Notes: generated by a model from the letters alone, not told the origin. Shown: positions 1-34,996, counted from the first letter of the stretch. The stretch is 37,679 nucleotides of DNA from Deltaproteobacteria bacterium (GCA_026388335.1 JAPLJZ010000098.1:1-37679); one strand, 5' to 3'. Translations and numbers: made by a program.

Positions 1-1558
1 ACAACTACATTCGTATAATCCAGATGCATCAGGAGATCGGAACGTCCCCTGAGTTCGGATACGCTTCTCAAGCCCAACCGACGGAGAATACTGACGATTT
101 CGTTTCTCCAGGCATTATAGGTGTTAATCAATCGCTGGGCTCCCCATTCAAGATCTATTTTGGATGCCAGCATCTTATCTGTCGTTGCGATACAGCGGGG
201 ACACCCACGACCCGTCGAACAGCGATTGCATCTGACACATCCCAAGGCCACCATTTCCACCGTACCGATGACAACGCCGTCGGCGCCGAGGGCGATGGCC
301 TTGGCGACATCGTAGGGGTTGCGTATCCCGCCGCTGGCCATTAGCGTCACCTGCTCCCGCGCGCCTTCAGCCACAAGGAAATTATGCACCCTGGGAACGG
401 CATGGCGATATTTTTCTTGGCAATGTCCGGTGCGGCGCCCGTACCGCCGTAACCGCCGTCCAGGTGAATTATATGCGTTCCCGCGGAGTAGCTTCCCACG
501 GCAACCATGTCCACATCGTTGGGCGTCGATACCTTGGTCGAGATCAGCGCCCGCCTGTTGATATGCTTGACCCAGTCGATATGTTTCTGATGGTCTTCGA
601 TGGAATAGACGCTGTGGAACGGAAAGGGGGAGAACAAGGATATCCCGACGACGGTCTCGCGCATCTTGGCGACGGCCTGGGTATTTTTATCTCCCAGCAG
701 GTGCCCTCCCAAGCCCGGTTTAGCGCCCTGGGCGTATTTAAATTCCACAATAGGAACGCGTTGGATGGTTTCTTCCCGGACGCCAAAAAGGCCCGTGGCG
801 ACCTGGGTGATCATATGATCGTCGTAAGGCCTCATCCGTTCCATGAAACCGCCCTCGCCCGTGCACGAGAAGGTATTCCACGCCACGGCCGCCCGTGCCT
901 TGGAAAGCTGGGTCGTATTGCTGACGGAGCCGAAGGACATGCCGCCGCCATACCACGGGACATCGATCCTGATCCTGGCACGTCCGTCGTGGCGGCGATT
1001 CAGTTCAATACTCGTATCTATTTCTTCTTCTCTAAGTTCGATGGGCGGTCGGTCCGGAAATTTAAACCGGAGGCGGTCGAATCCTCCCTCTGATTTTCCC
1101 GTCTCGAATTCATACCCGTAATCTTCGGAAGGGCATTCACCGTTTTCCGCCATCTTCCAGGTGGCGAGAATCATCTCGGCAGGCCAACGGTAATCGCCAA
1201 GGGCTTTCATCATCGGGTTTTCCTGGATGCGCAACGCGCCCTGAGGACATGCCGTAATGCAATAGCATCCTTTTTTCTCACACACCGGGCCAAAACAGAG
1301 ATGACTCTTCGGCTGGGCAAAATATTTATACCCAGGACTTTTCACATGCACGCCCTGGGGACATATTTCAACGCATTTGCCGCATTTGAGACATAGTTCT
1401 TCGTTTCTCAGGATAATATATTTGGAGATCTCATTCCGGTATCGGGGCGGAGCCGGCCGTATCGTACGCGCCTGTTTGAATTGAGGCGTACGGGTCTTCC
1501 GCGTTTTTTCCGGAATAATATCTTCAAGCTTGCAATCTATTTCCAAAAAGTCTGCCAA
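1..1558 (-). CDS. Ferredoxin-fused FMN-binding glutamate synthase-like protein, frameshifted and cut by window edge
   Basis: This is the last visible gene of the mvhD-metF operon. The N-terminal part carries a CxxCxxCxxxC 4Fe-4S motif and a second cysteine-rich ferredoxin-like stretch. A glutamate synthase FMN domain follows (GGMSFGSVS, GQGAKPG-type KYAQGAKPGLGG, HLDGGYGGTGAAPD). I chose the TTG at 1558 as start because AGGAGG lies six bases upstream; an upstream TTG at 1582 is in frame but has no such site. The start overlaps the end of the preceding gene by about 35 bases. Near 393-397 the frame breaks and the conceptual product ends at 347. One base deeper, the frame continues without stop to position 1 and encodes the expected family C-terminus (PRVHNFLVAEGAREQV, LMASGGIRNPYDVAKA, then a CVRCNRC cysteine motif). 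No glutaminase domain is attached, so ordinary glutamate synthesis is not assured. It may be a true frameshift or a missing C in a CCC run. Confidence 0.85.
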
Positions 1559-2930
1559 AAGCTTCCTCCTCGAGTTGCTCAAAAAACATGGCCCGTCCTA
1601 CGTCCCCTCTCAGACGCCGGGCATCACGCATACCCATGGCGCCCATCAATTCAACCAACTGGTCATGCCAGGCGCTGATTAAATTGGTCATTCTTCCGAC
1701 GCCGTAACTTGGATTGATTTCCTGAATTTTAGCAGGACAGGCATGGCTATCCCCGCATTGATGGCACAGGTGACATTCAAGTCCCACCAGCAGGGGCAGG
1801 TCAATCGATACAAGATCGGCGCCGCACAGAACACCTTTTGCCATATGTTCCGGAAGGGCGATGCCGCCTCCGGCGATGATGGTAACGTCATCTCTCCGGC
1901 CGTTTTCGATCAGGGACTTGTGCACCTTACGGATCATATCCTTAATGAACATGGGGTGTTCCGATCCGATCTCCCTGCCGTTGCTATCCGCTACGATATG
2001 AATAACCTCGACGTCCTCATCGGCAAGATCGATAGCCCGTTGCATGCCGCCGGCAGTCAATTCGACGCGCACGGCAACGACAACGCCGGGATGGATCCGT
2101 TTTAGTTCCCGGATACGGCTTTTAACGTTCCCGCCGGCTTCTATTTCGGCCAACCTCGTTCTTTTCAAAATTTCCACGGGAAGCATCGCGGCGTCGGCAG
2201 CGAAATAAAAGGCGATGTGGGGCAGGCATTTGTCGGCATCAACGCCTGCGAGGGGCCATTTTTGCGCATCCACCAAGGCAATGAGATCGGTTTTGACCGC
2301 CGTTTCCACGATGATCGCATCGAGCTTCGGGAGGGTATACTTATCCGGGATTCTATCAATAACGAGGGGCATGGGAATGGACAGGATTGGAGACAGAGGC
2401 GAAACCACTTCATCACCGTTCAAGACGAGAAAAGATGATTTTTGCCCGATGTCGACGGCGGAACTGATATACTCGCGTCCGTGAATTCCGTCCCGGGTCG
2501 GCCGCACGATTTCCGACATATCGGTCCACATCGAATCAAACCCGTAACCGGAAAATTTCCCGCCATAACCTGCTCCGGAAACGGGAATTTTCGCCGTCTC
2601 CGCCTGAGCCCATGTCGTCAGAATAATCTCGGGCGTCCAGTAGCTGTTCCCGAGCTTTTCATATTCAGGATTAATTGCGAGGCATAAAAGGTTTTTGGTG
2701 CAATCCTGAACACAGGAAAAGCAGCCCATGCAATCGAAGAAAAGGGAATCCACGGTCTCGAGATCCCGGATATATTTAATCTCATCGCGGTGCCGGTCAT
2801 ACACGCAAGCCTTCTTGACGCAGTTGTGGCACCTTGCGCAATCTTCCCGCCAATCGACAATGCCGTACTTGCCGATACGCGGACGTCTGGGAGGAACAGG
2901 TTTTGTTTCTATGTGATATTTTTCTGGCAT
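1524..2930 (-). CDS. Ferredoxin-fused, partial glutamate synthase-like protein
   Basis: 468 aa. The N-terminal 90 residues hold two cysteine clusters (C31, C34, C37, C42 and C67, C70, C73, C77), so a two-cluster ferredoxin-like domain is likely. The rest resembles the C-terminal half of the glutamate synthase FMN barrel (IIAGGGIALPEHMAKGVLCGADLVSID, then a GLECHLCHQCGDSHACP cysteine motif). The N-terminal barrel signature MSFGxxS and the GQGAKPG signature seen in the downstream paralogue are missing. It may therefore be a non-catalytic or electron-transfer partner of that protein. Start ATG at 2930 has GGAGAG about nine bases upstream. It lies 23 bases after metF, and its 3' end overlaps the next gene, so the two are probably made together. 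The exact reaction is unknown. Confidence 0.85.
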   Translation of the reverse strand: MPEKYHIETKPVPPRRPRIGKYGIVDWREDCARCHNCVKKACVYDRHRDEIKYIRDLETVDSLFFDCMGCFSCVQDCTKNLLCLAINPEYEKLGNSYWTPEIILTTWAQAETAKIPVSGAGYGGKFSGYGFDSMWTDMSEIVRPTRDGIHGREYISSAVDIGQKSSFLVLNGDEVVSPLSPILSIPMPLVIDRIPDKYTLPKLDAIIVETAVKTDLIALVDAQKWPLAGVDADKCLPHIAFYFAADAAMLPVEILKRTRLAEIEAGGNVKSRIRELKRIHPGVVVAVRVELTAGGMQRAIDLADEDVEVIHIVADSNGREIGSEHPMFIKDMIRKVHKSLIENGRRDDVTIIAGGGIALPEHMAKGVLCGADLVSIDLPLLVGLECHLCHQCGDSHACPAKIQEINPSYGVGRMTNLISAWHDQLVELMGAMGMRDARRLRGDVGRAMFFEQLEEEAFGRLFGNRLQA

Positions 2931-2953
2931 AGAATCAGCTCTCCGTTGTCATA

Positions 2954-3880
2954 TTAGCGCTTGCCGGACAATCCGGAGGCTGATAAAATATCTGGTAACA
3001 TTTCTTCTTTTCCACCGGAGAGAATATGTATCCCCCGTAATCCATTCATATTTTTAAGTTTATTGATTATTTCCACGCAAATAGACAGACCCTCTTTTTT
3101 CTGGGCTTGCCTGTCTCCGGTAGATTTCAATCTTTCAATGATACCGGCAGGTATTTGGAACTCAGTGTATTTATTCAGGAGAAATTCTGCTTCCTCAGCG
3201 CTATCCAAAGGAAAGACACCGGCTATAATCGCTGTTTTTTCGGCAAGGCCGGCCTGCTTTACCGCATCAAACCAATGTTGGAACTCATCAATGTTGAATA
3301 CAGCGTGTGTCTGTATAAATTCCGCCCCAGCTGCGACTTTTTGCGTAAGCCTGATGATGTTTAAGTCAACGGGCTTCAGATAGGGATTGGCGGCGGCGCC
3401 CGTTATTACGGGGAAGGAGCCGTTTATCTTTTCACCATTCAGCAGTTCACCCTGTTCACGCATCTTTTTTATGACGTTGATCAACTGCGTAGAATCGAGG
3501 TCATATACATTCGCGGACTCGGGATTATCCGTTAAAGTCTGATGATAACCCGAAAGGCAAAGGATGTTCCTGATCCCCAAGGCCGCCGCACCCAACAAGT
3601 CGGATTGGATGGCGATACGGTTTCTGTCACGGGTAACAACCTGGTAAACAGGTTCGATTCCCGCTTGGGCGAGGATAACCGATGCCGCCAGGCTGGACAT
3701 GACAACTCCGAAAGGATTATCCGCTACATTAACCGCTGACGGCACTTCTTTTAGCGCTTGCAGGGCCGCCTTAATCGCCGCGCCCTCTGTTTCCGCCTTT
3801 GGCAGGTATTCAGCCGTAACGACGAAATCTCCACTTTTCAATTGATCATGAAACCTTTTTTCGTTTTTCACTATGCTCAC
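2954..3880 (-). CDS. metF: Methylenetetrahydrofolate reductase
   Basis: 308 aa with the MetF-family TIM-barrel layout. Visible signatures include an N-terminal TAEYLPKAETEG strand, NVADNPFGVVMSSLAAS, the RDRNRIAIQSDLLGAAALGIRNILCLSG core, and GAEFIQTHAVFNIDEF. It reduces 5,10-methylene-THF to 5-methyl-THF, or runs in reverse, in the methyl branch of the Wood-Ljungdahl pathway. In several anaerobes MetF works with an iron-sulfur MetV subunit and HdrABC/MvhD proteins. Here the upstream gene is MvhD-like, but no MetV is seen in the window. The start is uncertain: GTG at 3880, or an in-frame GTG at 3871 that is preceded by GGTGAG. It sits in the middle of a minus-strand operon with a sigma-54 promoter upstream. 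Confidence 0.92.
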   Translation of the reverse strand: MSIVKNEKRFHDQLKSGDFVVTAEYLPKAETEGAAIKAALQALKEVPSAVNVADNPFGVVMSSLAASVILAQAGIEPVYQVVTRDRNRIAIQSDLLGAAALGIRNILCLSGYHQTLTDNPESANVYDLDSTQLINVIKKMREQGELLNGEKINGSFPVITGAAANPYLKPVDLNIIRLTQKVAAGAEFIQTHAVFNIDEFQHWFDAVKQAGLAEKTAIIAGVFPLDSAEEAEFLLNKYTEFQIPAGIIERLKSTGDRQAQKKEGLSICVEIINKLKNMNGLRGIHILSGGKEEMLPDILSASGLSGKR

Positions 3881-3955
3881 CAGACTATTATGTTTTACCC
3901 GTACCCGGGCAAGATGTACTAACGGAAATCCCTTATCTATGTTGCCGGTGGCGTC

Positions 3956-4354
3956 TTACGACATACCGCGAATTTTTTCACGAAAAATTTTTAATTTTGA
4001 AACAATTCCTTCCATTCCATTACCATTCATAGGCAGGACGGTTACACGCTTGCCACCCATTCCGGCCTCTTCAAGGAGGGTATTGGCCTGTTCCGCTCTT
4101 TTAGGAGCCCGTAGATTACCTTCGAGGTAATGGCATTCATTTTTAGGGCAGGTGACTAAAGCAAGGCCGTCTGCTCCCGTCTCAAACGCCTTGAGGAAAT
4201 AAAGGAGATCTGCCTTGCCGGAACATGGCAGGCTGATTATTTTATGCTCATCCCCCTCTTCTTCGCCAAACAGGCGGCTAAGTTCATCTCCGTCGATACA
4301 ATTTGAACAGTAAAAGATATATAATTTTAAATCTTTATGATGTAGCATTTCCAT
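3956..4354 (-). CDS. mvhD: MvhD/FlpD-like hydrogenase iron-sulfur subunit
   Basis: 132 aa from the ATG at 4354, which has GAGG six bases upstream; an upstream in-frame start at 4405 lacks a site. Conserved features are FYCSNC near residues 15-19, LPCSGKADLLYFLKAFETGADGL near 42-64, and TCPKNECHYLEGNLRAPKR near 68-87. Cysteines 16, 19, 44, 69 and 74 fit the [2Fe-2S]-binding delta subunit that links heterodisulfide reductase HdrA to hydrogenase or formate dehydrogenase in methanogens, and to MetFV in some acetogens. Here it is the first gene of the operon with metF. It probably passes electrons to or from a partner complex. No HdrA gene is in view, so the partner may be encoded elsewhere or be the downstream ferredoxin/GltB-like pair. 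Confidence 0.88.
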   Translation of the reverse strand: MEMLHHKDLKLYIFYCSNCIDGDELSRLFGEEEGDEHKIISLPCSGKADLLYFLKAFETGADGLALVTCPKNECHYLEGNLRAPKRAEQANTLLEEAGMGGKRVTVLPMNGNGMEGIVSKLKIFREKIRGMS

Positions 4355-4440
4355 ATTATCCTCACTGCGATAGATAAGGGATAAGTGAATCCTTTGTTCG
4401 CACAAATCACAGAAACGTACCGAACAGTAGCGGCAATTAA

Positions 4441-4456
4441 AGCAAATATAGTGCCA
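4441..4456 (-). promoter_or_regulatory. Sigma-54 promoter of the mvhD-metF operon
   Basis: On the minus strand the sequence reads TGGCAC-TATAT-TTGC, an exact match to the TGGCAC-N5-TTGC consensus, with GG and GC exactly ten bases apart. The predicted start of transcription is near 4430, about 75 bases before the mvhD start codon. Confidence 0.85.
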
Positions 4457-4933: not shown

Positions 4934-4971
4934 CCGAAGGAGAAGGCTCTATAAAAAGCCCTCTCCTTCGG
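4934..4971 (-). terminator. Terminator hairpin after the FMN glutamate synthase-like gene
   Basis: Inverted repeat CCGAAGGAG / CTCCTTCGG, with an additional inner AGGCT/AGCC pairing and an A-rich loop. It lies about 30 bases past the stop codon of the gene ending at 5005. There is only a modest pyrimidine run after the stem, so termination strength is uncertain. Confidence 0.7.
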
Positions 4972-5004: not shown

Positions 5005-6594
5005 CTATTCGGTCAGAATCTTCTTTGCTTCCTTCAAATAGGCTTCCATAACATACGGAATGCCGGAGATGTCGGCCGCCTCTTTGGTCAGGGACATGAC
5101 ATCCCTGCGGGTAACCGTGGAAAGGTTGAAGTTTCGGCTGCCGGCCATGAGCTGCTGAAGCCCGATCTTGAATTTCTGACCGTATGTATAGAAACCAAGG
5201 GCGCCCAGAGGAATTTTCTCAGTTTCCTTACCGTACTTCTTCTTCAACTCCTCATAACAAACGAAAATTTCCTCTATCGTCGTACCGAAGACGGAGACGG
5301 TCTTGGGCAGATTCTTGTTTGCGATCCACTCGCCGATATTCTTGCCAACCATAGCGGGGATCATGAGAGCTCGCCCCATGCAGACGGCCTTGACGTATGG
5401 GGCGCCCATAGATAGGGCCTTGAATACTCCGTCTTCCGATGAAAAGCCGCCGGCGACGGCGATATCGGGAACCCTCAGCTTCTTCTTTTTCATCTCTTCA
5501 CAGAACTGATAGGTCAGGCTGTGGAGATAGAAGCTGGGGATGCCCCATTCGCACATCATGGGCCAGGGGCTCATGCCGGTGCCGCCCGGTGCGCCGTCAA
5601 TGGTTAAAAGATCGATCTCTGCCTCGGAACAGAAGCGGAGCGCCATGGCCAGCTCGACGGCGGAATAGGCGCCGGTCTTCAGAGTAATACGGGAGAAACC
5701 GATTTTGCGGAGACGCGCAACCTCTTTCATGAAGCCGTCTTTCGTCACAAAGCCAAGACGGGAATGGCGTTCAAACTCTTTGATGGCCCCATCCTTAAAG
5801 GCGGCCTTGATTTCAGGAAGGGTCGGATCGGGCAGAACAATATAGCCCCGTTTTTTTAATTCTATGGCCCTTTCCAGAGTCTTTACTTTGATTTCACCGC
5901 CGATGTTCTTGGCGCCCTGTCCCCATTTAAGCTCTATCGTATCTAATTTGTGCTTTTTACTTACATATTCAGCAACCCCCAGGCGTGTGTCTTCCACGTT
6001 CATCTGGACCAGGATCTCTCCATATCCTTCATTATAGCGATTGTAAGTCTCGATGCGACGGTCCATTTCAGGAGATTTTTTCACCTTGCCCTTGCTGTCC
6101 AATTCCAGGCCGGGATCGATACCGCATACATTTTCACCGCATACGAGTGTGACGCCGGAAATGGCTGCACCAGCGGCGAAGTGTTCCCAGTTCCGACGGG
6201 CAATCTCCGTGGAACCCAGGGCGCCTGTGAAGATGGGCATGCGCATTTTGACCTTTTTATTCCAGCCATATGCAGTTTCCGTATTCACAGATGGAAATAA
6301 TGCTGTATCCGGACCAGCCGTTACTCCTTTAGGCAAACCTTCGGCGCCAACTGCATATCCCTGAATGCTGAGATGAGAATAATCGACAGGATAGTTTTTG
6401 TCCGCCCCGGCGGTAATTTCACCAAAGCCCGTGGGATAGAGAACTTCACGGCCCCGGAATGAGGACAGCCAGATCTCGCAGCCTCCCCGACATCCATCCA
6501 CACATCGGCTGCAAATACCCGACATGGGGACAACACTTTTGGAACGGTTGAACGTTCCCGTTGACTCGTTTGCATTTGGTTGCCTAAGATTCAT
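5005..6594 (-). CDS. FMN-binding glutamate synthase-family protein (stand-alone)
   Basis: 529 aa, with a start ATG preceded by GGGAGGAG at six bases. The N-terminal segment has a compact cysteine motif (CSRCVDGCRGGCEIW, residues about 27-41). The FMN-barrel follows with MPIFTGALGSTEIA, ELKWGQGAKNIGGE, TIDGAPGGTGMSPWP and IAVAGGFSSEDGVFKALSMGA. It has neither a glutaminase (GATase) domain nor the GXGXG domain, so alone it could not take ammonia from glutamine. It may need a partner or do a related flavin reaction. It follows nrpR by 50 bases and ends at a hairpin, so nrpR and this gene look like a two-gene operon under nitrogen control. Exact activity is not predictable from sequence. Confidence 0.9.
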   Translation of the reverse strand: MNLRQPNANESTGTFNRSKSVVPMSGICSRCVDGCRGGCEIWLSSFRGREVLYPTGFGEITAGADKNYPVDYSHLSIQGYAVGAEGLPKGVTAGPDTALFPSVNTETAYGWNKKVKMRMPIFTGALGSTEIARRNWEHFAAGAAISGVTLVCGENVCGIDPGLELDSKGKVKKSPEMDRRIETYNRYNEGYGEILVQMNVEDTRLGVAEYVSKKHKLDTIELKWGQGAKNIGGEIKVKTLERAIELKKRGYIVLPDPTLPEIKAAFKDGAIKEFERHSRLGFVTKDGFMKEVARLRKIGFSRITLKTGAYSAVELAMALRFCSEAEIDLLTIDGAPGGTGMSPWPMMCEWGIPSFYLHSLTYQFCEEMKKKKLRVPDIAVAGGFSSEDGVFKALSMGAPYVKAVCMGRALMIPAMVGKNIGEWIANKNLPKTVSVFGTTIEEIFVCYEELKKKYGKETEKIPLGALGFYTYGQKFKIGLQQLMAGSRNFNLSTVTRRDVMSLTKEAADISGIPYVMEAYLKEAKKILTE

Positions 6595-6644: not shown

Positions 6645-7649
6645 TTAAATTGACATCTCTTCATATACTTCCGTGAATGGCCTGAGATCACCATATTCAA
6701 GCATTGTAGACATGGCATGATTTTCAATCGGGATGCCAGCCTCGTGGACGGCGGCCGTCGGATTGAGGCCACCGATGAGGATCATGCCTACCTTATGAAT
6801 ATCCACAGGTATCTGGCATACGGCTTCTCCGATTTCCCCGGTAACTAAAACGCCATTCATCCCCGCCCTCCTGAGATTGCTGACGATTTCCCTTACTTTG
6901 TCCATACATGGCGCGGGAATTTCTCTAAAATTCGCCAATATCTTTCCCTCCCCGTTGGCAATGGCTTCTCGGACCGATGTCATTTTACCACGAATAAAAG
7001 CCTCTGACGGGTCAAGGGAAGAACCGGAATAGTAAATCAGTTCCACAAAACGGAGGGGACGTCCCTTTCTCATCTGCAGGATTCCTCCGAACTTGGAATC
7101 CATGGGAATCCCGTTTTTCAGCATGACTCCGTTTGTAACGATGCTGCATACGGTGGCAAACCCTACCCTACCTGCCGGGACTAAGGCATCCCCAATACGC
7201 TGCCCCTCATGGGCTACTGCGACAAGGTCGCTGACCTTCAGGTTTGCTTCAAAAACAGCAGCCATAACCTTTAAGGCCTCAGAAAGGTTTTCCCGGGGCA
7301 AAAAGGAGATATTCATCGGAATGAGTCCCTGCCGCCGGACAGGATCGAAGGTGGTACGGAAGGAGAGAATTTCAATGCGGGAGATGACAAAGCCGATTTT
7401 ATCGCGGACCATGGCATGCTGAATTTCCTCGATGCCCATGTTGGTGATGGTGCGCCCATCGAGTTTCCCAATGAGTTCCGTAAGACCGCGTTCGTCCATA
7501 AAACGAAGATGATAACGGACGGCCCTTTCGCTCAGAGTGATTCCATAATCCTGAAGACGACGGGAAATTACCCGAGCCCCGACAGGCGCCACAGAGTCGC
7601 GGACAATTTTCAGGATAAGGAGTGTCTTCCGTTCTATTTCCTGAGACAT
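6645..7649 (-). CDS. nrpR: NrpR-type nitrogen regulator (winged helix + DUF128 domain)
   Basis: 334 aa from the ATG at 7649, which has AAAAGG nine bases upstream; a GTG at 7703 is a longer alternative. Residues about 5-75 form a winged helix (LLILKIVRDSVAPVGARVISRRLQDYGITLSERAVRYHLRFMDERGLTE, GRTITNMGIEEI). The rest is one NrpR/DUF128 domain, including VGRVGFATVCSIVTNGVMLKNGIPMDSKFGGIL and GMNGVLVTGEIGEAVCQIPVDIHKVGMILIGGLNP. In Methanococcus, NrpR is a repressor of nif and glnA that is released by 2-oxoglutarate. Here one sensor domain is present, whereas the M. maripaludis protein has two. It is co-directional with a GltB-like gene and divergent from the DUF3141 gene. A nearby palindrome is shared with the amtB upstream region, suggesting autoregulation. 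Confidence 0.9.
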   Translation of the reverse strand: MSQEIERKTLLILKIVRDSVAPVGARVISRRLQDYGITLSERAVRYHLRFMDERGLTELIGKLDGRTITNMGIEEIQHAMVRDKIGFVISRIEILSFRTTFDPVRRQGLIPMNISFLPRENLSEALKVMAAVFEANLKVSDLVAVAHEGQRIGDALVPAGRVGFATVCSIVTNGVMLKNGIPMDSKFGGILQMRKGRPLRFVELIYYSGSSLDPSEAFIRGKMTSVREAIANGEGKILANFREIPAPCMDKVREIVSNLRRAGMNGVLVTGEIGEAVCQIPVDIHKVGMILIGGLNPTAAVHEAGIPIENHAMSTMLEYGDLRPFTEVYEEMSI

Positions 7650-7695
7650 GGGCAATACCTTTTTATTAGGCAGGCGGTAATCTATTGCCGACCCC

Positions 7696-7724
7696 TCTAT
7701 CACCGAGGAAAGACCCTGTCAAGC
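7696..7724 (-). promoter_or_regulatory. Probable sigma-70 type promoter of nrpR
   Basis: On the minus strand TTGACA (7719-7724) is followed 17 bases later by TAGAGG, which is a weak -10. It lies directly downstream of the GTACAAATATGTAC palindrome and about 50 bases before the nrpR start codon. The -35 is perfect and the -10 is poor. Confidence 0.45.
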
Positions 7725-7745: not shown

Positions 7746-7995
7746 GAATTACACGTGATATTGGTTCAAAAAAGTTACTTTGGTCTTTGTAACGTAATGG
7801 CTGCTATAGGCAATATTTAACGGGCAGGAGGGGAGTCACCAATCGCAAGGGATGCATGTTACATGTCGTAAATATTGACAAATTAGTAAAAAGTAATTTT
7901 GAATTATGTCGTGTCTCAAGAGAAATATTTTTATTGACACTGGCACGTCTATGCCCTATGTTTCCGGCGGTTTATCAGAAAAGGAGACAGATATT

Positions 7996-10194
7996 ATGGA
8001 GAATTCTAATTTACAATCTACAAAAATAACCCCGACCTGGGACGCTGTCGGGCATTTGGTTGAGTATACGACGGACGCCTTGCAACGCTCCGTCCTTTAT
8101 GCCGATACCATGCGCAGAAGGGGCAACACCTACATCGAACATCTTAAAAACGGCCAGCCCCCCGTGTTGGTTTTCAAATATGAAATGATTCTCGATGGGC
8201 GGGAATTCAAGAAGCCCGTCAATTATTCTCTGGTCCGGATCACCGACCGGAGGGCCAAGAAGCGCACCCCGGAAGAAAAAGAAACCGCTCGCCTTAAAGA
8301 ACTCAGGGGAAAGACGGAGCTGCTGCCCAAACGCCCGATCGTCATTATCGATCCCCGGGCCGGTCATGGACCGGGGATCGGCGGTTCCAAAAGAAACTCG
8401 GAAATCGGAATGGCCCTCGAACGTGGCTATCCTGTCTATTTTATTCTTTTCTATACAGAGCCGATGCCCGGCCAGACCCTGAGTGACGTAGAGGCAGCGG
8501 AAGCACGGTTCATCGAGGAGATTGTCAATCTTCACCCCTACGCCGACGCCCCAGCGATCATGGGCAACTGTCAGGCGGGCTGGGCCGCAGCCCTCCTGTG
8601 CGCCGACCGTCCCGACATTACCGGTCCCCTGATTCTCAACGGGGCGCCCCTGTCCTACTGGGCAGGCGTGGAAGGGACCAATCCCATGCGCTACAAGGGA
8701 GGTCTCAACGGCGGATCATGGATGGTATCGCTATTGAGCGACCTCGGAAACGGCAAATTTGACGGCGCCAACCTGGTTTCCAACTTTGAGGGCCTGAACC
8801 CGGCCAATACCATCTGGACCAAGCAGTATAACGTCTATAAAAATATCGACGAGGAGGTGGAGCGCTACCTCAATTTCGAAAAATGGTGGGGCGGTTTCTT
8901 CCTCATGAATACGGAAGAGATAGAATTCATTGTGAACAATTTATTTGTGGGCAACAAGCTGGAAAAAGGGGAGTTGGAAATCCGCCCGGGAACGAAGATC
9001 AATCTCCGTAACATCGAGAGCCCCATCATCGTCTTTGCCTCCCGGGGTGATAATATTACACCCCCTCAGCAAGCCCTCAACTGGATCACCAAAGTTCATC
9101 CGACCACGGAAGATATTAAAAAGGCCGGACAGGTGATCATTTACATCATCCACGAGGATATTGGTCATCTGGGCATCTTTGTCTCGGGAGGTGTGGCCCA
9201 AAAGGAGCACAAGGAGATCCTCGCGAGTTTCGACATGATCGACTACCTCCCGCCGGGGCTCTACGAAATGATCATCGAGGGCGACATCAAGAGCGGCGAT
9301 ATTGACACCCGCTTCGAAGAGCGAACTATCGACGACATCTTGGCCATGGATGACGGCGTCCAGGATGAAGAAGACTTCTGCACCGTCAACACGATGTCTG
9401 AGTTGCTTGATAATCACTATAAAATGTATTGTCGCCCCTGGGTCCGGTTATTGTCCTCGGAACTGACCGGCGAAATCAGCCGCCTCCTCCATCCGCTGCG
9501 TTTAAAGCGTTATCTGCTATCGGACATCAATCCTTTCCTTCGTCCCCTCAAATATGTCGCCTCCTCCGTGAAGGCAAACCGTAAGCCCGTAAAGCCGGAT
9601 AATCCCTTTGTTGAACTTGAATACAGCTTTTCTGATTTTATGATCAAATGGCTAAACCAATACCGCGATGCGAGGGATAGTCGTATCGAACGGAAGTTCC
9701 GGGCCATTTATGAAAATCCCCTTATGCAGTTCTTCTGCACGCCCGTACCCGGTGCGGAGGAAAACGGCGCAATTCCGGCAGCAGGTGATGGCGGAAGCGA
9801 GGACAAGCGCTGGACGGCCCTTGAGGAAGGAGGGGTTGCCGAAGGATTGGTCAGGATTATCATGGCCGTCGCCCGGAAGAATCACATCATTAAACGAAGG
9901 CTGTTTGAAGTCGCACAGGAAATAGCCAAGACCCATAAAGTCTTGAGCAAGATAAGACCGGCCGAGTTTAAAAAGATTGTGCGCCGCCAGGCGCAGATCC
10001 TTCAGGCCGATGAGGATGCCGCCCTCAAGGCCTTGGGCAAGCTCATCAAAACGAAAGAGGACCGGGCAGAGGCCCTTTCCATCGCCAAACGTATCGCCCT
10101 GGCCGACGGGAAGTATGAGGATGAAGAAAAAACGGTGATCGATAAAATTCAGAAAGGCCTTGAGTTAAACAATTTGAAGTCACCCACCCGTTAA
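7996..10194 (+). CDS. DUF3141 protein: PhaC-like alpha/beta hydrolase with TerB-like tail
   Basis: 732 aa from the ATG at 7996, which has GGAG eight bases upstream; an earlier in-frame start at 7906 has no site. The first 450 residues match the DUF3141/poly(3-hydroxyalkanoate) synthase-like alpha/beta hydrolase family. They include RPIVIIDPRAGHGPGIGG, the nucleophile elbow MGNCQAGWAA (Cys192), PIIVFASRGDNITPPQQALNW and a C-terminal GHLGIFVSGG histidine. The last 70 residues or so (VRRQAQILQADEDAALKALGKLI, ALSIAKRIALADGKYEDEEKTVIDKI) resemble a TerB/tellurite-resistance-like helical domain. The biochemical role of DUF3141 proteins is not established; PHA-like acyl chemistry is a guess from the Cys-box. 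It is divergently transcribed from nrpR and is the last chromosomal gene before the integrated element. Confidence 0.88.
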   Translation: MENSNLQSTKITPTWDAVGHLVEYTTDALQRSVLYADTMRRRGNTYIEHLKNGQPPVLVFKYEMILDGREFKKPVNYSLVRITDRRAKKRTPEEKETARLKELRGKTELLPKRPIVIIDPRAGHGPGIGGSKRNSEIGMALERGYPVYFILFYTEPMPGQTLSDVEAAEARFIEEIVNLHPYADAPAIMGNCQAGWAAALLCADRPDITGPLILNGAPLSYWAGVEGTNPMRYKGGLNGGSWMVSLLSDLGNGKFDGANLVSNFEGLNPANTIWTKQYNVYKNIDEEVERYLNFEKWWGGFFLMNTEEIEFIVNNLFVGNKLEKGELEIRPGTKINLRNIESPIIVFASRGDNITPPQQALNWITKVHPTTEDIKKAGQVIIYIIHEDIGHLGIFVSGGVAQKEHKEILASFDMIDYLPPGLYEMIIEGDIKSGDIDTRFEERTIDDILAMDDGVQDEEDFCTVNTMSELLDNHYKMYCRPWVRLLSSELTGEISRLLHPLRLKRYLLSDINPFLRPLKYVASSVKANRKPVKPDNPFVELEYSFSDFMIKWLNQYRDARDSRIERKFRAIYENPLMQFFCTPVPGAEENGAIPAAGDGGSEDKRWTALEEGGVAEGLVRIIMAVARKNHIIKRRLFEVAQEIAKTHKVLSKIRPAEFKKIVRRQAQILQADEDAALKALGKLIKTKEDRAEALSIAKRIALADGKYEDEEKTVIDKIQKGLELNNLKSPTR

Positions 10195-11286: not shown

Positions 11287-11514
11287 ATGGCAAAAATTGA
11301 CAGAGAAACCATGACAATTGAGGAGTATGGCGCCCTTCCTGTAGATGGTATCCTTTGCGATGCGCGTTTTGTTCTGGAATCGGGCAACAAGGGGTGTTGT
11401 CGGGCACTTGCGGGGACCATTATGGTGTTGTCAGGTTCAATCAAGAAGTCCATGAGGCTTATGGAGCTTGAAGGCATGGAAAGGGCGCTGCGGGAAAGGG
11501 GGGGCAGAATATGA
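11287..11514 (+). CDS. Small element protein of unknown function (first gene of operon)
   Basis: 75 aa, starting at the ATG after AAGGAGGA; an in-frame TTG lies two codons upstream. The product (MAKIDRETMTIEEYGALPVDGILCDARFVL..., ending in RALRERGGRI) is soluble and has two adjacent cysteines (KGCCRAL) near the middle. I do not recognise a family. Its stop overlaps the next start (ATGA), so it is coupled to three further genes. Expression would depend on read-through of the terminator-like leader at 11197-11268. Confidence 0.75.
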   Translation: MAKIDRETMTIEEYGALPVDGILCDARFVLESGNKGCCRALAGTIMVLSGSIKKSMRLMELEGMERALRERGGRI

Positions 11515-11918
11515 CAAAGGACACGTTCATCAATCTGAATCTCCTTTACGAGGCAATTGATGGTCCCCTCGAAGAGATCCACACTAAAGGATTTTGGGCC
11601 AAACGATGGCTTGAGCCGTGCCCTGAAAATGAGTGGGTGCCGAAGCGCGTAGCGGCCAATATTGAGCGCTCAATGGAAGAGAGTGAAAAAGCCATGGAAT
11701 TGATTCGTGAAATTCAAGAAATTATTTCGGAGTTCAAAGGAAAAATCCGCCGAAAGCCAGCGAAGGTTCCCCAACAAAAAAACCGGATCACTCACCTGAA
11801 CGTCGTCAAGGGGGCGCTTTATTCGCCGCCCCAAGTGGTTGACAATGACTTCCTGTCCGACAAATTCAAGGCATGGAGGCAAGAACAAAAGACACAGAAT
11901 AGGGAGGTGCCGGCATGA
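11511..11918 (+). CDS. Element protein of unknown function
   Basis: 135 aa, start overlapping the previous stop by four bases and preceded by a G-rich site. The middle part (ANIERSMEESEKAMELIREIQEIISEFKGKIRRK, about residues 48-82) is helical and charged, consistent with a short coiled coil, and is followed by a basic linker. No signal peptide or membrane segment. No family recognised. Confidence 0.75.
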   Translation: MTKDTFINLNLLYEAIDGPLEEIHTKGFWAKRWLEPCPENEWVPKRVAANIERSMEESEKAMELIREIQEIISEFKGKIRRKPAKVPQQKNRITHLNVVKGALYSPPQVVDNDFLSDKFKAWRQEQKTQNREVPA

Positions 11919-12163
11919 AGAAAACTCCATTGGACAAAGCGGCAGCTAAAGCACGGGAAACGCTTTGGAGGAGCTTTATCAAAGCTCACGTTCTGAAAGA
12001 ATATTTTGAAAAGATTGACCACGACACTCCTCCAGAATTCGATGACTATACGGCCTGGATAGAAGGCCTGTTATTGATTCTGTCAGAAGTCATTGAGGGC
12101 GTTGAAGAAGCTCATGCATTTATTACGGAAATAGATTCTTTCAAAGTGGAGGTAACAACGTGA
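11915..12163 (+). CDS. Small acidic helical element protein, unknown function
   Basis: 82 aa, coupled to its neighbours by four-base and three-base overlaps. Mostly helix-forming and acidic, with a hydrophobic amphipathic stretch (AWIEGLLLILSEVIEGVEEAHAFI) near the C-terminus. It could be an oligomeric accessory or regulatory protein; no family recognised. Confidence 0.75.
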   Translation: MKKTPLDKAAAKARETLWRSFIKAHVLKEYFEKIDHDTPPEFDDYTAWIEGLLLILSEVIEGVEEAHAFITEIDSFKVEVTT

Positions 12164-12663
12164 AGATCCGCTATCTCAATGGGGAAAAAGTTTACGTGGA
12201 TGACCGGCGCAGTATGGGCAGTTGGTCGGGGGTCTATTCTGAATATGGAAAGATAGGGGTCTGTAAGCACAGGGATGTCATCAGGGAACTAAACAGTCTT
12301 CTTAATCGAGCAGAAAAAACGCCCGAAGAGAGGACCCATCGAGACCTGTGGTCGCTGCTATACGCCATGGATCGTTTCGGACGGAAAGGAGGACAGAAGC
12401 CTCTCTGGGAAATCATGGATGAGGAGGCCGTTTTCGATGATCCGGGGAAAGTAAGGCTGGCTAAAGAACCCAGGCCAAGCGCGGGAAAGCGGGTCAATGT
12501 GCTACAGGTTGGCGAACCGCGCATTATCGAACATGGCGACTCCCATGCTGATGAATTCCGAGCATTCCAGGCGCCCTACCGGGATGCATTGGATGGAATT
12601 TTCAAGGATTTGGCTGAGACATTCAGAAATACCGGGGGAAAGTCTGAGCGGGCGGCGCTTTAA
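12160..12663 (+). CDS. Element protein of unknown function (GTG start)
   Basis: 167 aa, GTG start with GGAGG seven bases upstream and overlapping the previous stop. Features: a Trp/Tyr-rich beginning (DDRRSMGSWSGVYSEYGKIGVCKHRDVIRELNSLL), a charged middle (RTHRDLWSLLYAMDRFGRKG) and a C-terminal helical part. Nothing identifies an activity. Last gene of the four-gene coupled set. A 140-base gap without a gene follows (12664-12804). Confidence 0.75.
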   Translation: MKIRYLNGEKVYVDDRRSMGSWSGVYSEYGKIGVCKHRDVIRELNSLLNRAEKTPEERTHRDLWSLLYAMDRFGRKGGQKPLWEIMDEEAVFDDPGKVRLAKEPRPSAGKRVNVLQVGEPRIIEHGDSHADEFRAFQAPYRDALDGIFKDLAETFRNTGGKSERAAL

Positions 12664-12804
12664 AATGCCCTGTAAACGGTTTTCTGGTTATGGCATGAGG
12701 ATTGAAAGGGCAGAAACAAACAGGACGGTGAAGGGACAAAGCGGGGCGGGTTGTTTTGGTGAAGGCCCTGCCCTTGAAATTATGTAATTGGAAGGGGTAA
12801 CAGT

Positions 12805-13098
12805 ATGGACATTGACACCCTAGAAAAGGAACTGCGGGAAACCGAAGAGGGGATCCACGCCCTTTTCCAGGCCGGGAAGATCCCGACGCCTGAAGATTAT
12901 GCCGGCGTGGACCGAATTAAGGCGGAATTGAAGGTAGCACGTCGGGTCAAGGCGATGGACGCAAAGCGGACCGATCCGAAGTTGACCCGCAAGATCAGCA
13001 TCCTCATGCCTGAAGATGAGTTCCAGGCGCTGACCAAAAAGGCGACCGATGCAGGGGTTGATATATCGAAATATATCAGGAGCTTGCTGAAAAGTTAG
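12805..13098 (+). CDS. Small protein with ribbon-helix-helix-like C-terminus
   Basis: 97 aa, ATG preceded by GGAAGGGG. The N-terminal half is a charged helix pair (LEKELRETEEGIHALFQAGKIPTPEDYAGVDRIKAELKVARRVKAM). The C-terminal half (TRKISILMPEDEFQALTKKATDAGVDISKYIRSLLKS) has the strand-helix-helix pattern of RHH DNA-binding or relaxosome-accessory proteins. It may regulate the element or help replication or transfer; the specific role is unknown. Confidence 0.75.
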   Translation: MDIDTLEKELRETEEGIHALFQAGKIPTPEDYAGVDRIKAELKVARRVKAMDAKRTDPKLTRKISILMPEDEFQALTKKATDAGVDISKYIRSLLKS

Positions 13099-13276
13099 CC
13101 CCAAAGTGGAGGATAAGCCCCGTATAGAAGGCAAAAGTGGGGATTTTTAAAATATCGGATGTCGTATAATATACATTATGTAAACTTCAAGAGGTCGGTG
13201 GAGGGAAAATAAATACGGCGTAAGCGATTGATATTCATTAATTTTCTAATAATGTCCTACTTATGGCGGTGATAAA

Positions 13277-13990
13277 ATGGAATGGCCAAGCGACGGGGGG
13301 AAACTTCACGGCACATCGGACCCTGCTGAGATTATTGCGGTGTTAAATTTGTCTGCAAAAGAAAAAGTGTCATCTGGGATTGAGTATTACCTCCTCTCAG
13401 AAAATCGTGATGTCTCTATAATTTCAAATGTTCCGCCAAGTATTTACGAAAATGAAGATTTAAAGAAATACCCAGAACCATCGAGAGAGACTAAACTTCA
13501 GACTCTTCTTATCAAGGATCTTCAGGACAATATCGACATAATGCAAAGCGAATTTGATGCAACAGACAGATACGAAAATGGAAAGATATTTCAATTGAAT
13601 CAATGCTTTTTTAATAGCCAAGGGATGTTTCACTTGGTCAATCATCTATCGAACATCGGCATCATCAAACCGAAACCCAGGATTAAAATAGTCTTGGGTT
13701 TCATGGTCAGCAGAATCCCATTTGGCACCAACATTGGTGACATTGTGATTGAAAACACTCTGTTGCTTTTGCATGATTGGCATGTTTGGAATTATGTCAA
13801 TGACATCCTTGTTGATCTGACCATTTTTAAGCATGGGAATCTCGTGGGACTGGATTGCAACGTCACGTCGTGGGGCAGTGCAAAAGATCATGTTTTTGTG
13901 CATCCTCCGCATGGAATCGAGTATTGTGGAGCTGCGTATGATGCTATGGATACTTTTGAAAAGAAGATTGCTGCGTATTTTCCACAATAA
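13277..13990 (+). CDS. Cargo protein with possible Cys-His-Asp (transglutaminase/papain-like) triad
   Basis: 237 aa, ATG with a GGCGGTG site six bases upstream. Codon use is more AT-rich than in the flanking chromosome. The first 100 residues show no motif. From residue 108 the order QCFFNSQG (Cys110), a KIVLGFMV strand, HDWHVWNYVNDILVDLTI (His169, Trp171, Asp180) follows the Cys...H-x-W...D-x-T spacing of papain- or transglutaminase-like folds found in small phage and toxin proteins. This is pattern recognition only. The gene stands alone between the plus operon and the minus-strand HNH gene, in a typical cargo position. Confidence 0.7.
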   Translation: MEWPSDGGKLHGTSDPAEIIAVLNLSAKEKVSSGIEYYLLSENRDVSIISNVPPSIYENEDLKKYPEPSRETKLQTLLIKDLQDNIDIMQSEFDATDRYENGKIFQLNQCFFNSQGMFHLVNHLSNIGIIKPKPRIKIVLGFMVSRIPFGTNIGDIVIENTLLLLHDWHVWNYVNDILVDLTIFKHGNLVGLDCNVTSWGSAKDHVFVHPPHGIEYCGAAYDAMDTFEKKIAAYFPQ

Positions 13991-14091
13991 CTGGCAGGAC
14001 GTGAAAGGCAGGGGGCCGGCGAGGGAACGACGCCCGAAAATCGCTTTTAAGCTCCTTTCTCTTCCAGCTGGCATACGGCTGATGCCTTGTC

Positions 14092-14781
14092 TTAGGAATT
14101 TTCCCTGCTGACATACTTCTCATAATAATCGAGGAAGGAGCTATAATTGCCTTGTCCGTGGGCCTTTCTGTTCTTGCCAAGGACAGTTTTGTCAATCCGC
14201 GACTGAATATATGCGCAAGCGTCTTCAAACAGATGGAGCGGGATCATGTCCCATTTGGCTCCGTAACTTCTCTTGATCGCCTGGTAAAAGATTACATATT
14301 TATAGCTTTCTCCCTTTTCAGCCTTAGCAAATTCATGGTATCGATCGATGAGGTGCTTCAAGTAATTCCGTTTTATAGCATCTGCCCCTATTGACCCTGG
14401 GGGGGTAGGCACCTGTTTCTTGCTGCTCTTCCCGTGAAAGTGAACCTCATTAGCAATAGTCCCGGTGTTGACACCGCCAATAAAATTCAGGATACGAGCC
14501 CCTACAGCCGTTTTCGCATTGGGATTGCCCTTGTATATCAAGATTCTCTTCTGCAGAACAACATCCGCTTCAGATATTTGTCCAGCCGTTATTTTCCCAT
14601 GACAGTTCTTGCAAACATAGATAAGGTTTTCTTGAGAATGCGGATCTGGGACACTCTTACCGTGAATATGATGAAACTCCAAGGTGGCCACATCGATCTC
14701 ACCGCAGAAACCGCAAAGACCAGCAGCTTCTTGGATGATAAGCTTCTTTGTTCTTAAAGGAATGTCCTTTGTTCGTATCAT
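14092..14781 (-). CDS. HNH endonuclease-like protein
   Basis: 229 aa, ATG with AAGGGGG upstream. The first 62 residues form an HNH/His-Me-finger module with zinc ligands: C23-x2-C26, LEFHHIHGK (H37, H38, H40), N52 in ENLIYVC, and C57-x2-C60-H61. The remaining 165 residues are an extension without known motif (GSIGADAIKRNYLKHLIDRYHEFAKAEKGESYKY, YQAIKRSYGAKWDMIPLHLFEDACAYIQSRID). It would cut or nick DNA. It follows the GNAT gene by 13 bases in the same direction, so the two may act together, for example in defence or in interference with a helper phage; that is inference. Confidence 0.85.
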   Translation of the reverse strand: MIRTKDIPLRTKKLIIQEAAGLCGFCGEIDVATLEFHHIHGKSVPDPHSQENLIYVCKNCHGKITAGQISEADVVLQKRILIYKGNPNAKTAVGARILNFIGGVNTGTIANEVHFHGKSSKKQVPTPPGSIGADAIKRNYLKHLIDRYHEFAKAEKGESYKYVIFYQAIKRSYGAKWDMIPLHLFEDACAYIQSRIDKTVLGKNRKAHGQGNYSSFLDYYEKYVSRENS

Positions 14782-14794
14782 CTGATTTCCCCCT

Positions 14795-15490
14795 TCAGCG
14801 ATGTCTCAGAAGCTTCTTTCTTCCACGCCCTTGGTTGTTTGACAATTTTCTGGCATGCCACAAGTCGTGGATGTGGGAGGCGTGTTGCTCAGCAGAAGCG
14901 GCTACAGAATTAAGCTTCGATGCCTCATCATCTCCGAAAGCAGTTTGAATGTCATCTCTTGCGATGCGCAGGAACGCAGCCGCTTCCCATATTCTCTGTT
15001 TGATTCTTTTCACCTGTCCGTCAGATGACGGGACAAGCTTGGGCGTGGGGGCGGAAATAGCTGGTAAGTCATCCGGTGTGATCACTGCCGCAGCATCTGT
15101 GAGAAGTCGAAATCCAACGATTTGAGCATGGTGTTTGGCCTGTTCTGTTCGAAAGGTGATTTGTTGCTCTTTTCTTCCCGATGCAAACAAAAAAGGCAAG
15201 ATAACCGAACGTAGCGCATCCGCAAGGTATCCTCTACCGCGGTGCTTTGGTTTGACAAAAATGTGGAGGTCTTGTTTCCCCATATCGAGAACAGCAGCGA
15301 CAACGGTCTTGCGCTGGTTCCGGACAAAAAACATGGTGTAGCTATTCTCATCGAACGTCCCCCCGCTTGGAAGTTTTAGCCACACCCGGCCTACGAATAC
15401 TTTGTTTGTAAGCGGCCGCAAGAATATCAGATCAGGTGCTTCAGGTATGTTAAGGGAGTCGATGATTTTTTCAAGTGTTTCATCGGTCAT
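14795..15490 (-). CDS. GNAT-family acetyltransferase-like protein
   Basis: 231 aa. Residues about 30-130 look like a GNAT fold: strands VFVGRVWLKL and YTMFFVRNQRKTVVAAVLDMG, LHIFVKPKHRGRGYLADALRSVILPFLFASG with the acetyl-CoA motif R84-G-R-G-Y, then QITFRTEQAKHHAQIVGFRLL. The last 80 residues (KRIKQRIWEAAAFLRIARDDIQTAFGDDEASKLNSVAASAEQHASHIHDLW) form a helical extension of unknown function. The substrate is not predictable. It is the promoter-proximal partner of the HNH gene. Confidence 0.75.
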   Translation of the reverse strand: MTDETLEKIIDSLNIPEAPDLIFLRPLTNKVFVGRVWLKLPSGGTFDENSYTMFFVRNQRKTVVAAVLDMGKQDLHIFVKPKHRGRGYLADALRSVILPFLFASGRKEQQITFRTEQAKHHAQIVGFRLLTDAAAVITPDDLPAISAPTPKLVPSSDGQVKRIKQRIWEAAAFLRIARDDIQTAFGDDEASKLNSVAASAEQHASHIHDLWHARKLSNNQGRGRKKLLRHR

Positions 15491-15657
15491 TTAGGAATCT
15501 CTATCCTACATAAGAGATCTTGGCTTGGAGAAAGAGCCCGATACCGAGAATACGGAGATGGATTCCAAGCGCCCGTTCCATCCACCCCCGGTGGGAATAA
15601 GAAGATCGCCTCCACAACGGAGTTACGGCCATCAAATATCACTCCACGGAGGTCATG

Positions 15658-15939
15658 TCAATAGAATGGGGTGCCCTGTTTCTCACATCGACCTCTTTTT
15701 AAGGCCTTCCGAATTCTTTCCCGGAGACCGCCCGGCTCGTAGCCCATTTCATCAGCCACAAAATCAAAGAATGGGTTGTCTCCAAAGAGAAAATCTCGAG
15801 CCCCCGGGGCATAATCACGCCCATCTTTTAGCGCGAAGAAAGCCGAGAGAAACACAGCCAACCAGAGCCGAAAGATACCGGACCGTAACGACGACTCGCC
15901 ATCAAGCAGAGCGTCTAAATCGATTTCAGTTTCAATCAT
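15658..15939 (-). CDS. Small phage-type protein, unknown
   Basis: 93 aa from the ATG at 15939; a GTG at 16038 would give 126 aa. Neither start has a strong ribosome site. The product MIETEIDLDALLDGESSLRSG... ends in a conserved-looking stretch (ALKDGRDYAPGARDFLFGDNPFFDFVADEMGYEPGGLRERIRKALKRG) of the kind found in small phage proteins whose function is unknown. It lies downstream of the tail-type genes on the same strand. The 15491-15657 gap shows no gene. Confidence 0.6.
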   Translation of the reverse strand: MIETEIDLDALLDGESSLRSGIFRLWLAVFLSAFFALKDGRDYAPGARDFLFGDNPFFDFVADEMGYEPGGLRERIRKALKRGRCEKQGTPFY

Positions 15940-16056
15940 GTGTGAAATATAAGGCCCGGGAAAAGCAAGTGGAGTCGCATCTCCCGGGCCTAGGGAAGCA
16001 AGCGATGCAGGGAAGGAGGGCTCAAACCTGCGCCGCACGCCGTTTACTGAAGGGGT

Positions 16057-16773
16057 TCATCCCCACGTCTTTGCGATGTTTTCCTTGTTGAGCATGACCT
16101 TTGTGGATATGGACAGCGTTACATCCGCCCTCACCAAATAGCCCTCCTTGGTTCTTTCCTTGTCCAGGGGGACCGACATGGACTCAATCACGCAGTTTGG
16201 AATCATCATCCGGCGCCCGATGTTAAGAATGACGGGAAGCGGGATACGCCCTAACGGTTTCGCGTTCGCGAGGAATTCCTTGATTGCACCGTCGCCTTCT
16301 TTTCCAGCCGATATGTCAGGCCCCATCATCTTTTCAAGCTCACGAAGGGGCTCCATGACCTCTCTGAAAGCGTCGTTTATGGCATAGAACGAAAGAGTCA
16401 GATTGAATGTATTCGGTCGATTTCCTTCCCATATTTGCGTTGACGAGAGCGTGGTTACGGATGTTTTTTCAGTTGTCGCCTGAAGAAGTCCGCCCGCCTT
16501 CTCGAACATCCCCCCCAGATTGCTTTGCTCAAAAGGGCTATTCCAGTTGGCCTGTAAGGACCGGGATGTCCCCTGCCCTATCAAACCAACGACTAAAACG
16601 CTTATCTTGCTTTTATCGTCCGGCTGCGCTATCCACGCCTTTAAAAATGGGCTTACCTTTGGATCGGCATTACCATATACGCTGACTTTTGCTGCCTCGT
16701 GCTTTGTCCCGGTGCCGAGTTGCGCTGCTTTTTCTTTTGCCGCTAGTTCCTTTTCTTGGGCTGAAATCGCCAT
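16057..16773 (-). CDS. Putative phage tail/baseplate-type structural protein
   Basis: 238 aa, ATG preceded by AAGGAG. The layout NTFNLTLSFYAINDAFREVMEPLRELEKMMGP ... GRIPLPVILNIGRRMMIPNCVIESMSVPLDKERTKEGYLVRADVTLSISTKVMLNKENI resembles tail-tube-initiator or baseplate cap proteins: an LNIG strand, a 'pnVvi..vsv' turn and a C-terminal beta-rich half. It directly follows the tape-measure-like gene, where such proteins are expected. The first 25 residues are charged and helical. Exact place in the virion is uncertain. Confidence 0.6.
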   Translation of the reverse strand: MAISAQEKELAAKEKAAQLGTGTKHEAAKVSVYGNADPKVSPFLKAWIAQPDDKSKISVLVVGLIGQGTSRSLQANWNSPFEQSNLGGMFEKAGGLLQATTEKTSVTTLSSTQIWEGNRPNTFNLTLSFYAINDAFREVMEPLRELEKMMGPDISAGKEGDGAIKEFLANAKPLGRIPLPVILNIGRRMMIPNCVIESMSVPLDKERTKEGYLVRADVTLSISTKVMLNKENIAKTWG

Positions 16774-16789
16774 ATATTCGTCTCCTTAC

Positions 16790-19195: not shown

Positions 19196-19563
19196 TCCAC
19201 AACCCCCGTCTCACGGATCTCGGCAAGTTTCGCCCTGAATTTATCCATCATCCGCTCGTGACCGCCTTTACCACTGGCGAGGTAGGGACCGGTATATGCA
19301 GGACTATGGTCGTAGGGAAAAGGGGCCGGGCCAGGTCTCCGCGGACCGTTTTTTTCAAAGCGCCGATTCTGCTCCATAAGCGCCAATTCCTCGAGCCGTC
19401 CGCAGTTCAACTTGCCTTCAATCTCTGCAAAATCAAAGGCCGGTCTTTTCATTGCCATTTGGATGGAAAGATGTTCCGTTAGGGCACTTGCCTCAGCCCC
19501 GGTGATACTGGTTCCCAGCATCACCTTCTCTTGAAGTTCCTTGAAATTATGTAACGTTTCCAT
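19192..19563 (-). CDS. Small tail-region protein, unknown
   Basis: 123 aa from the ATG at 19563, with AAGGAG eight bases upstream. Product METLHNFKELQEKVMLGTSITGAEASALTEHLSIQMAMKRPAFDFAEIEGKLNCGRLEELALME... is helical and then basic (GPRRPGPAPFPYDHSP). It lies between a 53-aa gene and the tape-measure-like gene with overlapping ends, the usual location of tail assembly chaperones, but there is no frameshift signal and no recognisable family. Confidence 0.7.
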   Translation of the reverse strand: METLHNFKELQEKVMLGTSITGAEASALTEHLSIQMAMKRPAFDFAEIEGKLNCGRLEELALMEQNRRFEKNGPRRPGPAPFPYDHSPAYTGPYLASGKGGHERMMDKFRAKLAEIRETGVVE

Positions 19564-19564
19564 G

Positions 19565-19726
19565 TCATTGCTCCTTAAAAAAATGAAGATCATCCTCAGA
19601 GGAAGTCGTAATTCCCTCCCTGGACTCCTGGCGGGAGACCTCCCTGGTTCTGTCAGTTCGCTCCTTGACCTGGCGGTTCATCTCCTTTTGGGTCATCTCC
19701 TGATTGTTGAAAAATATCTTTGCCAT
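19565..19726 (-). CDS. Very small basic/acidic helical protein
   Basis: 53 aa (MAKIFFNNQEMTQKEMNRQVKERTDRTREVSRQESREGITTSSEDDLHFFKEQ). The ATG at 19726 was chosen over the longer 73-aa frame because the latter overlaps terS deeply. It ends one base from the next start. Highly charged and probably disordered or coiled; unknown function. Confidence 0.55.
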   Translation of the reverse strand: MAKIFFNNQEMTQKEMNRQVKERTDRTREVSRQESREGITTSSEDDLHFFKEQ

Positions 19727-19731
19727 TTCCT

Positions 19732-34985: not shown

Positions 34986-34996
34986 GAGATTTATCC

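Follow-up and report, generated by a model that had tools for sequence, protein, structure and literature searches.

What enzyme is encoded at the start of this contig, where an mvhD gene and a metF gene are followed by two genes for ferredoxin-fused, GltB-like proteins, and which partners complete it? The window, that is, the whole stretch of DNA that was analysed, is the entire contig C55 (37,679 b) of a 98.9%-complete MAG (G000), and its position 1 is the contig end. The features at this end are collected in Table 1. As stated in the preliminary description, mvhD, metF, gltA1 and gltA2 run in one direction with small gaps (75 and 23 bases) and one overlap (59 bases), all four on the minus strand, and their assignment was confirmed by Pfam and by the coordinates. 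The likely ATG of mvhD is preceded by GAGG. Compared with three relatives, gltA2 has lost 13 bases near position 395, and the resulting frameshift splits the frame into 347–1582 and 3–389. This deletion, ~400 bases away from the contig end, may be an assembly error. That the contig is a contaminant is unlikely, as the congener G002, with an RpoB 97.3% identical to that of G000, has the same region.

Table 1. Features at the beginning of the window, with coordinates counted from its first letter.
Feature	Coordinates	Strand	Evidence or remark
Contig end	1..2	-	operon of G002 carries on beyond the corresponding point
GltA2: ferredoxin domain and catalytic GltB FMN/3Fe-4S domain	3..1582, runs off the contig	-	Glu_synthase 1.6e-51
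GltA1: 2x[4Fe-4S] ferredoxin domain and degenerate GltB-type FMN barrel	1524..2930	-	partial PF01645 (Glu_synthase) 4.9e-13
MetF-like FAD protein	2954..3880	-	PF02219 (MTHFR) 3.4e-37; model matches MTHFR structures
MvhD1/FlpD [2Fe-2S] subunit	3956..4354 (open frame 3956-4405, likely ATG 4354)	-	PF02662 1.6e-23
Sigma-54-type -24/-12 site TGGCAC-N5-TTGC, ahead of mvhD	4442..4456	-	sole exact match in the window
Terminator-like hairpin between NrpR-Glt3 unit and operon	4934..4971	-	17-bp stem, then T-rich tail
Glt3, third GltB-like FMN protein, immediate upstream neighbour	5005..6594	-	PF01645 4e-14
NrpR-type nitrogen regulator, neighbour	6645..7703	-	NRD1_2 2.5e-83 and HTH_12

The contig end at position 1 truncates the operon in the window, and of the genes of the Hdr-type MetFV-HdrABC-MvhD set only those for MvhD and MetF lie before the end. 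In G002, on a 100-kb contig, the operon was found to be complete with ten genes. Past gltA2 it continues with genes for a GATase_6 plus GXGXG protein (893 aa), HdrC, HdrB, HdrA (1494 aa), a second MvhD and MetV. MetF and GltA1 of G002 are 92–93% identical to those of the window, and MvhD is 80% identical. The earlier observation that no GATase or MetV is visible was true of the window, but it is an artefact of the contig end; biological absence was ruled out, since relatives carry both. The proposal that the GltB-like pair replaces a missing partner of MetF could not be upheld, because the operon of the relatives has MetV, HdrABC, a second MvhD and the GATase/GXGXG protein. The genes for MetF, MetV, HdrA, HdrB, HdrC and MvhD all stand in one G002 cluster, with the Glt genes interposed. 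The full set is a Moorella-type MetFV-HdrABC-MvhD module plus a complete split glutamate synthase.

To survey this arrangement, the GltA1 alignment was scanned against 84,980 species genomes. The fractions given here refer to the best 80 loci by GltA1 similarity and are thus valid for close kin of the window GltA1, and each gene was counted only over loci with room for it on the contig. It was found that metF lies immediately upstream of gltA1 in 71 of 77 testable loci and an MvhD-type gene upstream of gltA1 in 65 of 68. GltA2 follows GltA1 in 62 of 71, GATase/GXGXG follows the GltB-like pair in 51 of 56, and HdrA likewise follows in 43 of 51. The loci are distributed over Desulfobacterota, Planctomycetota, Chloroflexota, Verrucomicrobiota, Ignavibacteriota, Bacteroidota, Omnitrophota, Hydrogenedentota, Fibrobacterota, Sumerlaeota and other phyla. 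The four-gene order, for which a search in other Syntrophales had been suggested, is therefore conserved there and far beyond, and its recurrence in many phyla excludes chance adjacency. As an observation that would speak against its proposal, the preliminary description had named a GltB-like pair regularly accompanied by a GATase gene and lacking metF. The GATase indeed follows in most loci, and a 40%-identical trio without metF exists; yet metF precedes gltA1 in nearly all testable close kin.

The same gene order was observed in G053, G112, G141, G147, G146 and G074 as far as the contigs or fetched stretches extend, and in G032 an MvhD-MetV-MetF-GltA1 set adjoins GlnE. A natural GltA1-GltA2 fusion occurs in locus L175. 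An apparent MvhD-MetF-GltA1 fusion of 901 aa (L145) was rejected, as unrelated sequences are connected there through a stretch of undetermined bases. The distant version of the locus (~40% identity in GltA1) was found in about 17 genomes of the order, mostly without MetF and Hdr, with the Glt trio behind a gene for a single protein that combines FAD_binding_4 (FAD-linked oxidase) and ferredoxin domains. In G144, FAD-oxidase, GltA1, GltA2, GATase and GXGXG form a single ORF of 2539 aa, an argument for electron-input subunit and Glt parts functioning there as one enzyme. Within the order, the operon seems to have spread by horizontal transfer. RpoB identity to G000 falls from 97.3% in G002 to 82.2% in G053 and 78.5% in G112, whereas for the operon proteins other than MvhD the identities are 92.5–96.7%, 92.2–96.5% and 89.6–94.4%, respectively. 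GltA1 was absent from the other six sampled congeners. An empty insertion site, sought via Glt3 in congeners, was not found, and only a 51% paralogue was present there.

The relatives' copy of GltA2 aligns with residues 810–1170 of Azospirillum GltS, including three 3Fe-4S Cys. In counts that are not independent, as some contigs are present twice, the QGAKPG-x-GG and GEGG motifs of GltA2 were found in 80 of 80 sequences, and the nucleophile Cys, HNGD, TDTE and AHQR of the GATase, whose gene lies outside the window, in 66 of 66 relatives. GltA2 and the GATase/GXGXG protein keep the catalytic motifs of glutamate synthase, and glutamine-dependent glutamate formation is predicted from them. In GltA1, the FMN/oxoglutarate motifs (QGAKPG, GGTGA) were found in 0 of 78 sequences, and all eight ferredoxin Cys are invariant in 49 sequences. 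In its AlphaFold model (pLDDT 77, poor at residues 117–151 and at the C-terminal end), GltA1 is similar to FMN barrels, that of GltS among them. GltA1 is a probable iron-sulphur electron conduit in which the flavin/oxoglutarate motifs have been lost.

HdrA of the G002 copy is an HdrA-GltD-HdrA tandem. It carries the NAD(P) motif GGGNVA, which suggests NADP(H) by the criterion set out in PMC12054007. Glu/Lys residues serve to tell bifurcating HdrA (PMC9430772), and E698 and K751 of the G002 protein align with E356 and K409 of the bifurcating HdrA 5odc. Judged from these two residues and homology, this HdrA would be capable of bifurcation. We propose that the operon encodes a glutamate synthase that receives its electrons from an Hdr complex which oxidises NAD(P)H and probably bifurcates, with MetF and MetV repurposed, and we consider the chances of this reading to be about even. 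The products of the ten genes would form one multi-subunit iron-sulphur flavoprotein making glutamate. The GATase domain would cleave glutamine, and the ammonia would be channelled to GltA2, where 2-oxoglutarate would be reductively aminated at FMN with electrons handed over by GltA1 via ferredoxin-type clusters. These electrons would be supplied by the HdrABC-MvhD module in place of the usual GltD, with HdrA oxidising NAD(P)H at its inserted domain. If HdrA bifurcates, as its signature residues allow, exergonic glutamate synthesis would be the high-potential branch and would pay for a low-potential product, e.g. reduced ferredoxin. With NAD(P)H as reductant, the conversion of glutamine and 2-oxoglutarate to glutamate releases a large amount of free energy, which makes it plausible as such a branch. 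A bifurcating, energy-conserving glutamate synthase in the full sense, in which NAD(P)H oxidation by the HdrABC-MvhD module drives both glutamate formation and ferredoxin reduction while MetF no longer acts on methylene-THF, is put forward only tentatively. Counted against the main reading were the origin of the loci, as the titles of all best 80 name MAGs or uncultured bacteria, the second, ordinary split glutamate synthase of the host (same contig, 32–37 kb), and the retention of a canonical MetF (Asp120) beside the same Glt genes in some relatives.

Alternatively, a Moorella-type Hdr methylene-THF reductase may have acquired a glutamate synthase, so that methylene-THF reduction or methyl-THF oxidation would exchange electrons with glutamate synthesis. 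MetF, MetV, HdrABC and MvhD are all there as in the Moorella and Sporomusa clusters (PMC9430772), the predicted MetF model matches MTHFR structures with the catalytic Glu28 kept, and the MetV-MetF-GltA1 loci L173, L176–L179, L182 and L184 have Asp120 intact. In the window MetF, however, this otherwise invariant pterin anchor of MTHFR (PMC9900621, PMC11094777) has given way to Tyr, and His stands in place of Gln183. In the E. coli enzyme, Asp120Asn leaves 0.3% of kcat and raises Km >40-fold (PMC11094777). In the MetF tree, the window protein falls into a clade of 40 rows from several phyla (support 100/96) in which no member has Asp120, and a smaller Glt-associated clade lacks it as well. Canonical MetV-MetF proteins retain Asp120, and so does a Glt-linked MvhD-MetV-MetF-GltA1 clade; the Glt-linked MetFs are thus not uniformly altered. 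Two further MTHFR-type proteins of the host retain the Asp, and neither Fhs nor ACS was found in the host or in G002.

Fhs and ACS occur together in each of the seven sampled genomes that carry canonical MetVF operons. Among hosts of the window-type operon, both were found in G112, G141 and G147 and neither in G000, G002, G053, G074 and the incomplete G146, so the operon is independent of the Wood-Ljungdahl pathway. Since Fhs and ACS are missing and MetF lacks Asp120, a methyl-branch role in this organism is unlikely, and the addition of a glutamate synthase to a working methylene-THF reductase is an unlikely account of the locus. The link between C1-type and nitrogen enzymes raised earlier is real at the gene level, and the association is an unusual one. 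The MetF/MetV pair of the window version has probably taken on a new role, either as a flavin/Fe-S relay or with another pterin. A metF gene beside hdrABC is accordingly not to be taken as a Wood-Ljungdahl marker.

It might also be supposed that Hdr, MvhD and MetF are wiring to GltA2 without energy coupling, in a glutamate synthase that depends on NAD(P)H or ferredoxin and does not bifurcate. Glutamate synthases do swap their electron-input subunit, as in the F420-dependent FrhB-GltS clusters (PMC9012536), and within the order the Glt trio can be accompanied by a FAD-linked oxidase instead; but HdrA keeps the Glu/Lys bifurcation signatures, and HdrBC with two MvhD look excessive for simple wiring, so that we give this explanation little credence. 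That the substrate aminated by the Glt module is some 2-oxo acid different from 2-oxoglutarate, the operon serving specialised biosynthesis and not general nitrogen assimilation, would fit with the ordinary split glutamate synthase and the third GltB-like protein already on the contig but is improbable, as GltA2 retains the GltS motifs and several lineages have nitrogen-control genes next to the operon.

The proposed Hdr-fed glutamate synthase can be compared with several known systems. The same six genes form one cluster in the Hdr-type MetFV-HdrABC-MvhD systems of the acetate producers Moorella thermoacetica and Sporomusa ovata (PMC9430772), and Moorella HdrA has the same tandem layout with the GltD insertion and two flavin domains. 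The operon described here differs in adding GltA1, GltA2, GATase/GXGXG and a second MvhD, in a MetF without Asp120, in a host without Fhs/ACS and in its nitrogen-type surroundings. With GOGAT (bacterial GltBD and the split archaeal type) it shares the class II GATase, the FMN/3Fe-4S GltB, GXGXG and the catalytic motifs, but it is split differently (GATase fused to GXGXG), has an extra degenerate GltB copy, and carries an HdrABC-MvhD-MetFV module in the place of GltD. HdrL/type III HdrA of Desulfobacterium autotrophicum (PMC2702500) and archaea (PMC12054007) is likewise fused to a GltD-type NAD(P)H domain, and HdrL has MvhD alongside; in the parts of these two sources drawn on here, no GATase, GltB or MetF partners are described, whereas the present operon holds a complete glutamate synthase. 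The F420-dependent glutamate synthase clusters of ANME (PMC9012536) also have an exchanged electron-input subunit, but their input is FrhB/F420 and not HdrABC with MetF. The preliminary description had envisaged an undescribed complex, and no description matching the MetF/Hdr/glutamate synthase combination was found in the open-access literature searched, which speaks only weakly for novelty.

When glutamate is made with NAD(P)H, a large redox drop goes unused, a loss of consequence for organisms near the thermodynamic limit. If the proposal is true, a bifurcating Hdr-wired glutamate synthase would be a way to recover part of this drop during nitrogen assimilation. HdrABC would thereby gain a new coupling partner, and the second acceptor of Moorella-type complexes in these lineages a candidate. 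Its wide phylum spread, with signs of transfer between families, suggests a recurrent trait of uncultured (anaerobic) bacteria.

The exact TGGCAC-N5-TTGC site of the preliminary description was confirmed ~90 bases ahead of the likely mvhD ATG. An identical site was found in the same position before the operon of the congener G002 (TGGCACTAAATTTGC). No such site was found at the operon in G053, G112 and G141; it is rare outside the genus and was therefore rejected as a general operon feature. By a strict count, 6 of 59 testable loci have NrpR upstream of the operon; in several Dehalococcoidia loci it is directly upstream, and Glt3 adjoins the operon also in loci L180 and L184. Further genes on the contig code for a P-II protein, a sigma-54 activator and an Amt ammonium transporter, the last directly preceded by a near-consensus sigma-54 site. 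Together with NrpR and the second GOGAT, these surroundings point to nitrogen assimilation. The nitrogen-assimilation region of the contig is broken by a phage-like block.

A FAD_binding_4 plus ferredoxin protein (616–630 aa) of the GlcD/D-lactate-dehydrogenase type, followed by GltA1-GltA2-GATase/GXGXG, was observed at L093, L094, L095, L086, L092 and other loci in relatives. MetF was absent from these sets, which constitute another predicted glutamate synthase whose electron donor is unusual. In G144, a genome of the same order as the window, FAD-linked oxidase, ferredoxin, GltA1, GltA2, GATase and GXGXG were fused in a single 2539-aa open reading frame (L097, 4539–12158, minus strand).

It was found that the genome of the window encoded a further MetF (contig G000:C99; L034, 1315–2916), a 533-aa fusion with a MetV-like C-terminal domain, which retained the pterin-anchoring Asp120.

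Within the window, a gene for a DUF3141 protein of 762 aa that ends in a TerB-type domain (7906–10194, plus strand) was transcribed divergently from the NrpR gene; the congener G002 carried a gene of similar size in the matching position. A phage-like block spanned ∼11500–25442, and a nitrogen-assimilation region (25763–37339) also encoded a split glutamate synthase as three proteins. A sigma-54-type site with one mismatch, TGGCAAGGTAATTGC (27482–27496, minus strand), lay directly 5′ of the ammonium transporter open frame.

Features of the phage-like block and the nitrogen-assimilation region
Feature	Window position	Region	Remark
Integrase	24162–25442	phage-like	
DnaB helicase	21121–22554	phage-like	
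HNH endonuclease	14092–14781	phage-like	
Transposase-type HTH	19732–20445	phage-like	
801-aa protein		phage-like	domain resembling VgrG3 C-terminus
P-II	25763–26164	nitrogen	
Ammonium transporter	26203–27471	nitrogen	
Sigma-54 activator	30422–31984	nitrogen	GAF domain
Split glutamate synthase, part 1		nitrogen	371 aa, N-terminus MCRLFA; likely GATase
Split glutamate synthase, part 2		nitrogen	Fer4-GltB, 544 aa
Split glutamate synthase, part 3		nitrogen	GXGXG-GltD-Fer4, 780 aa
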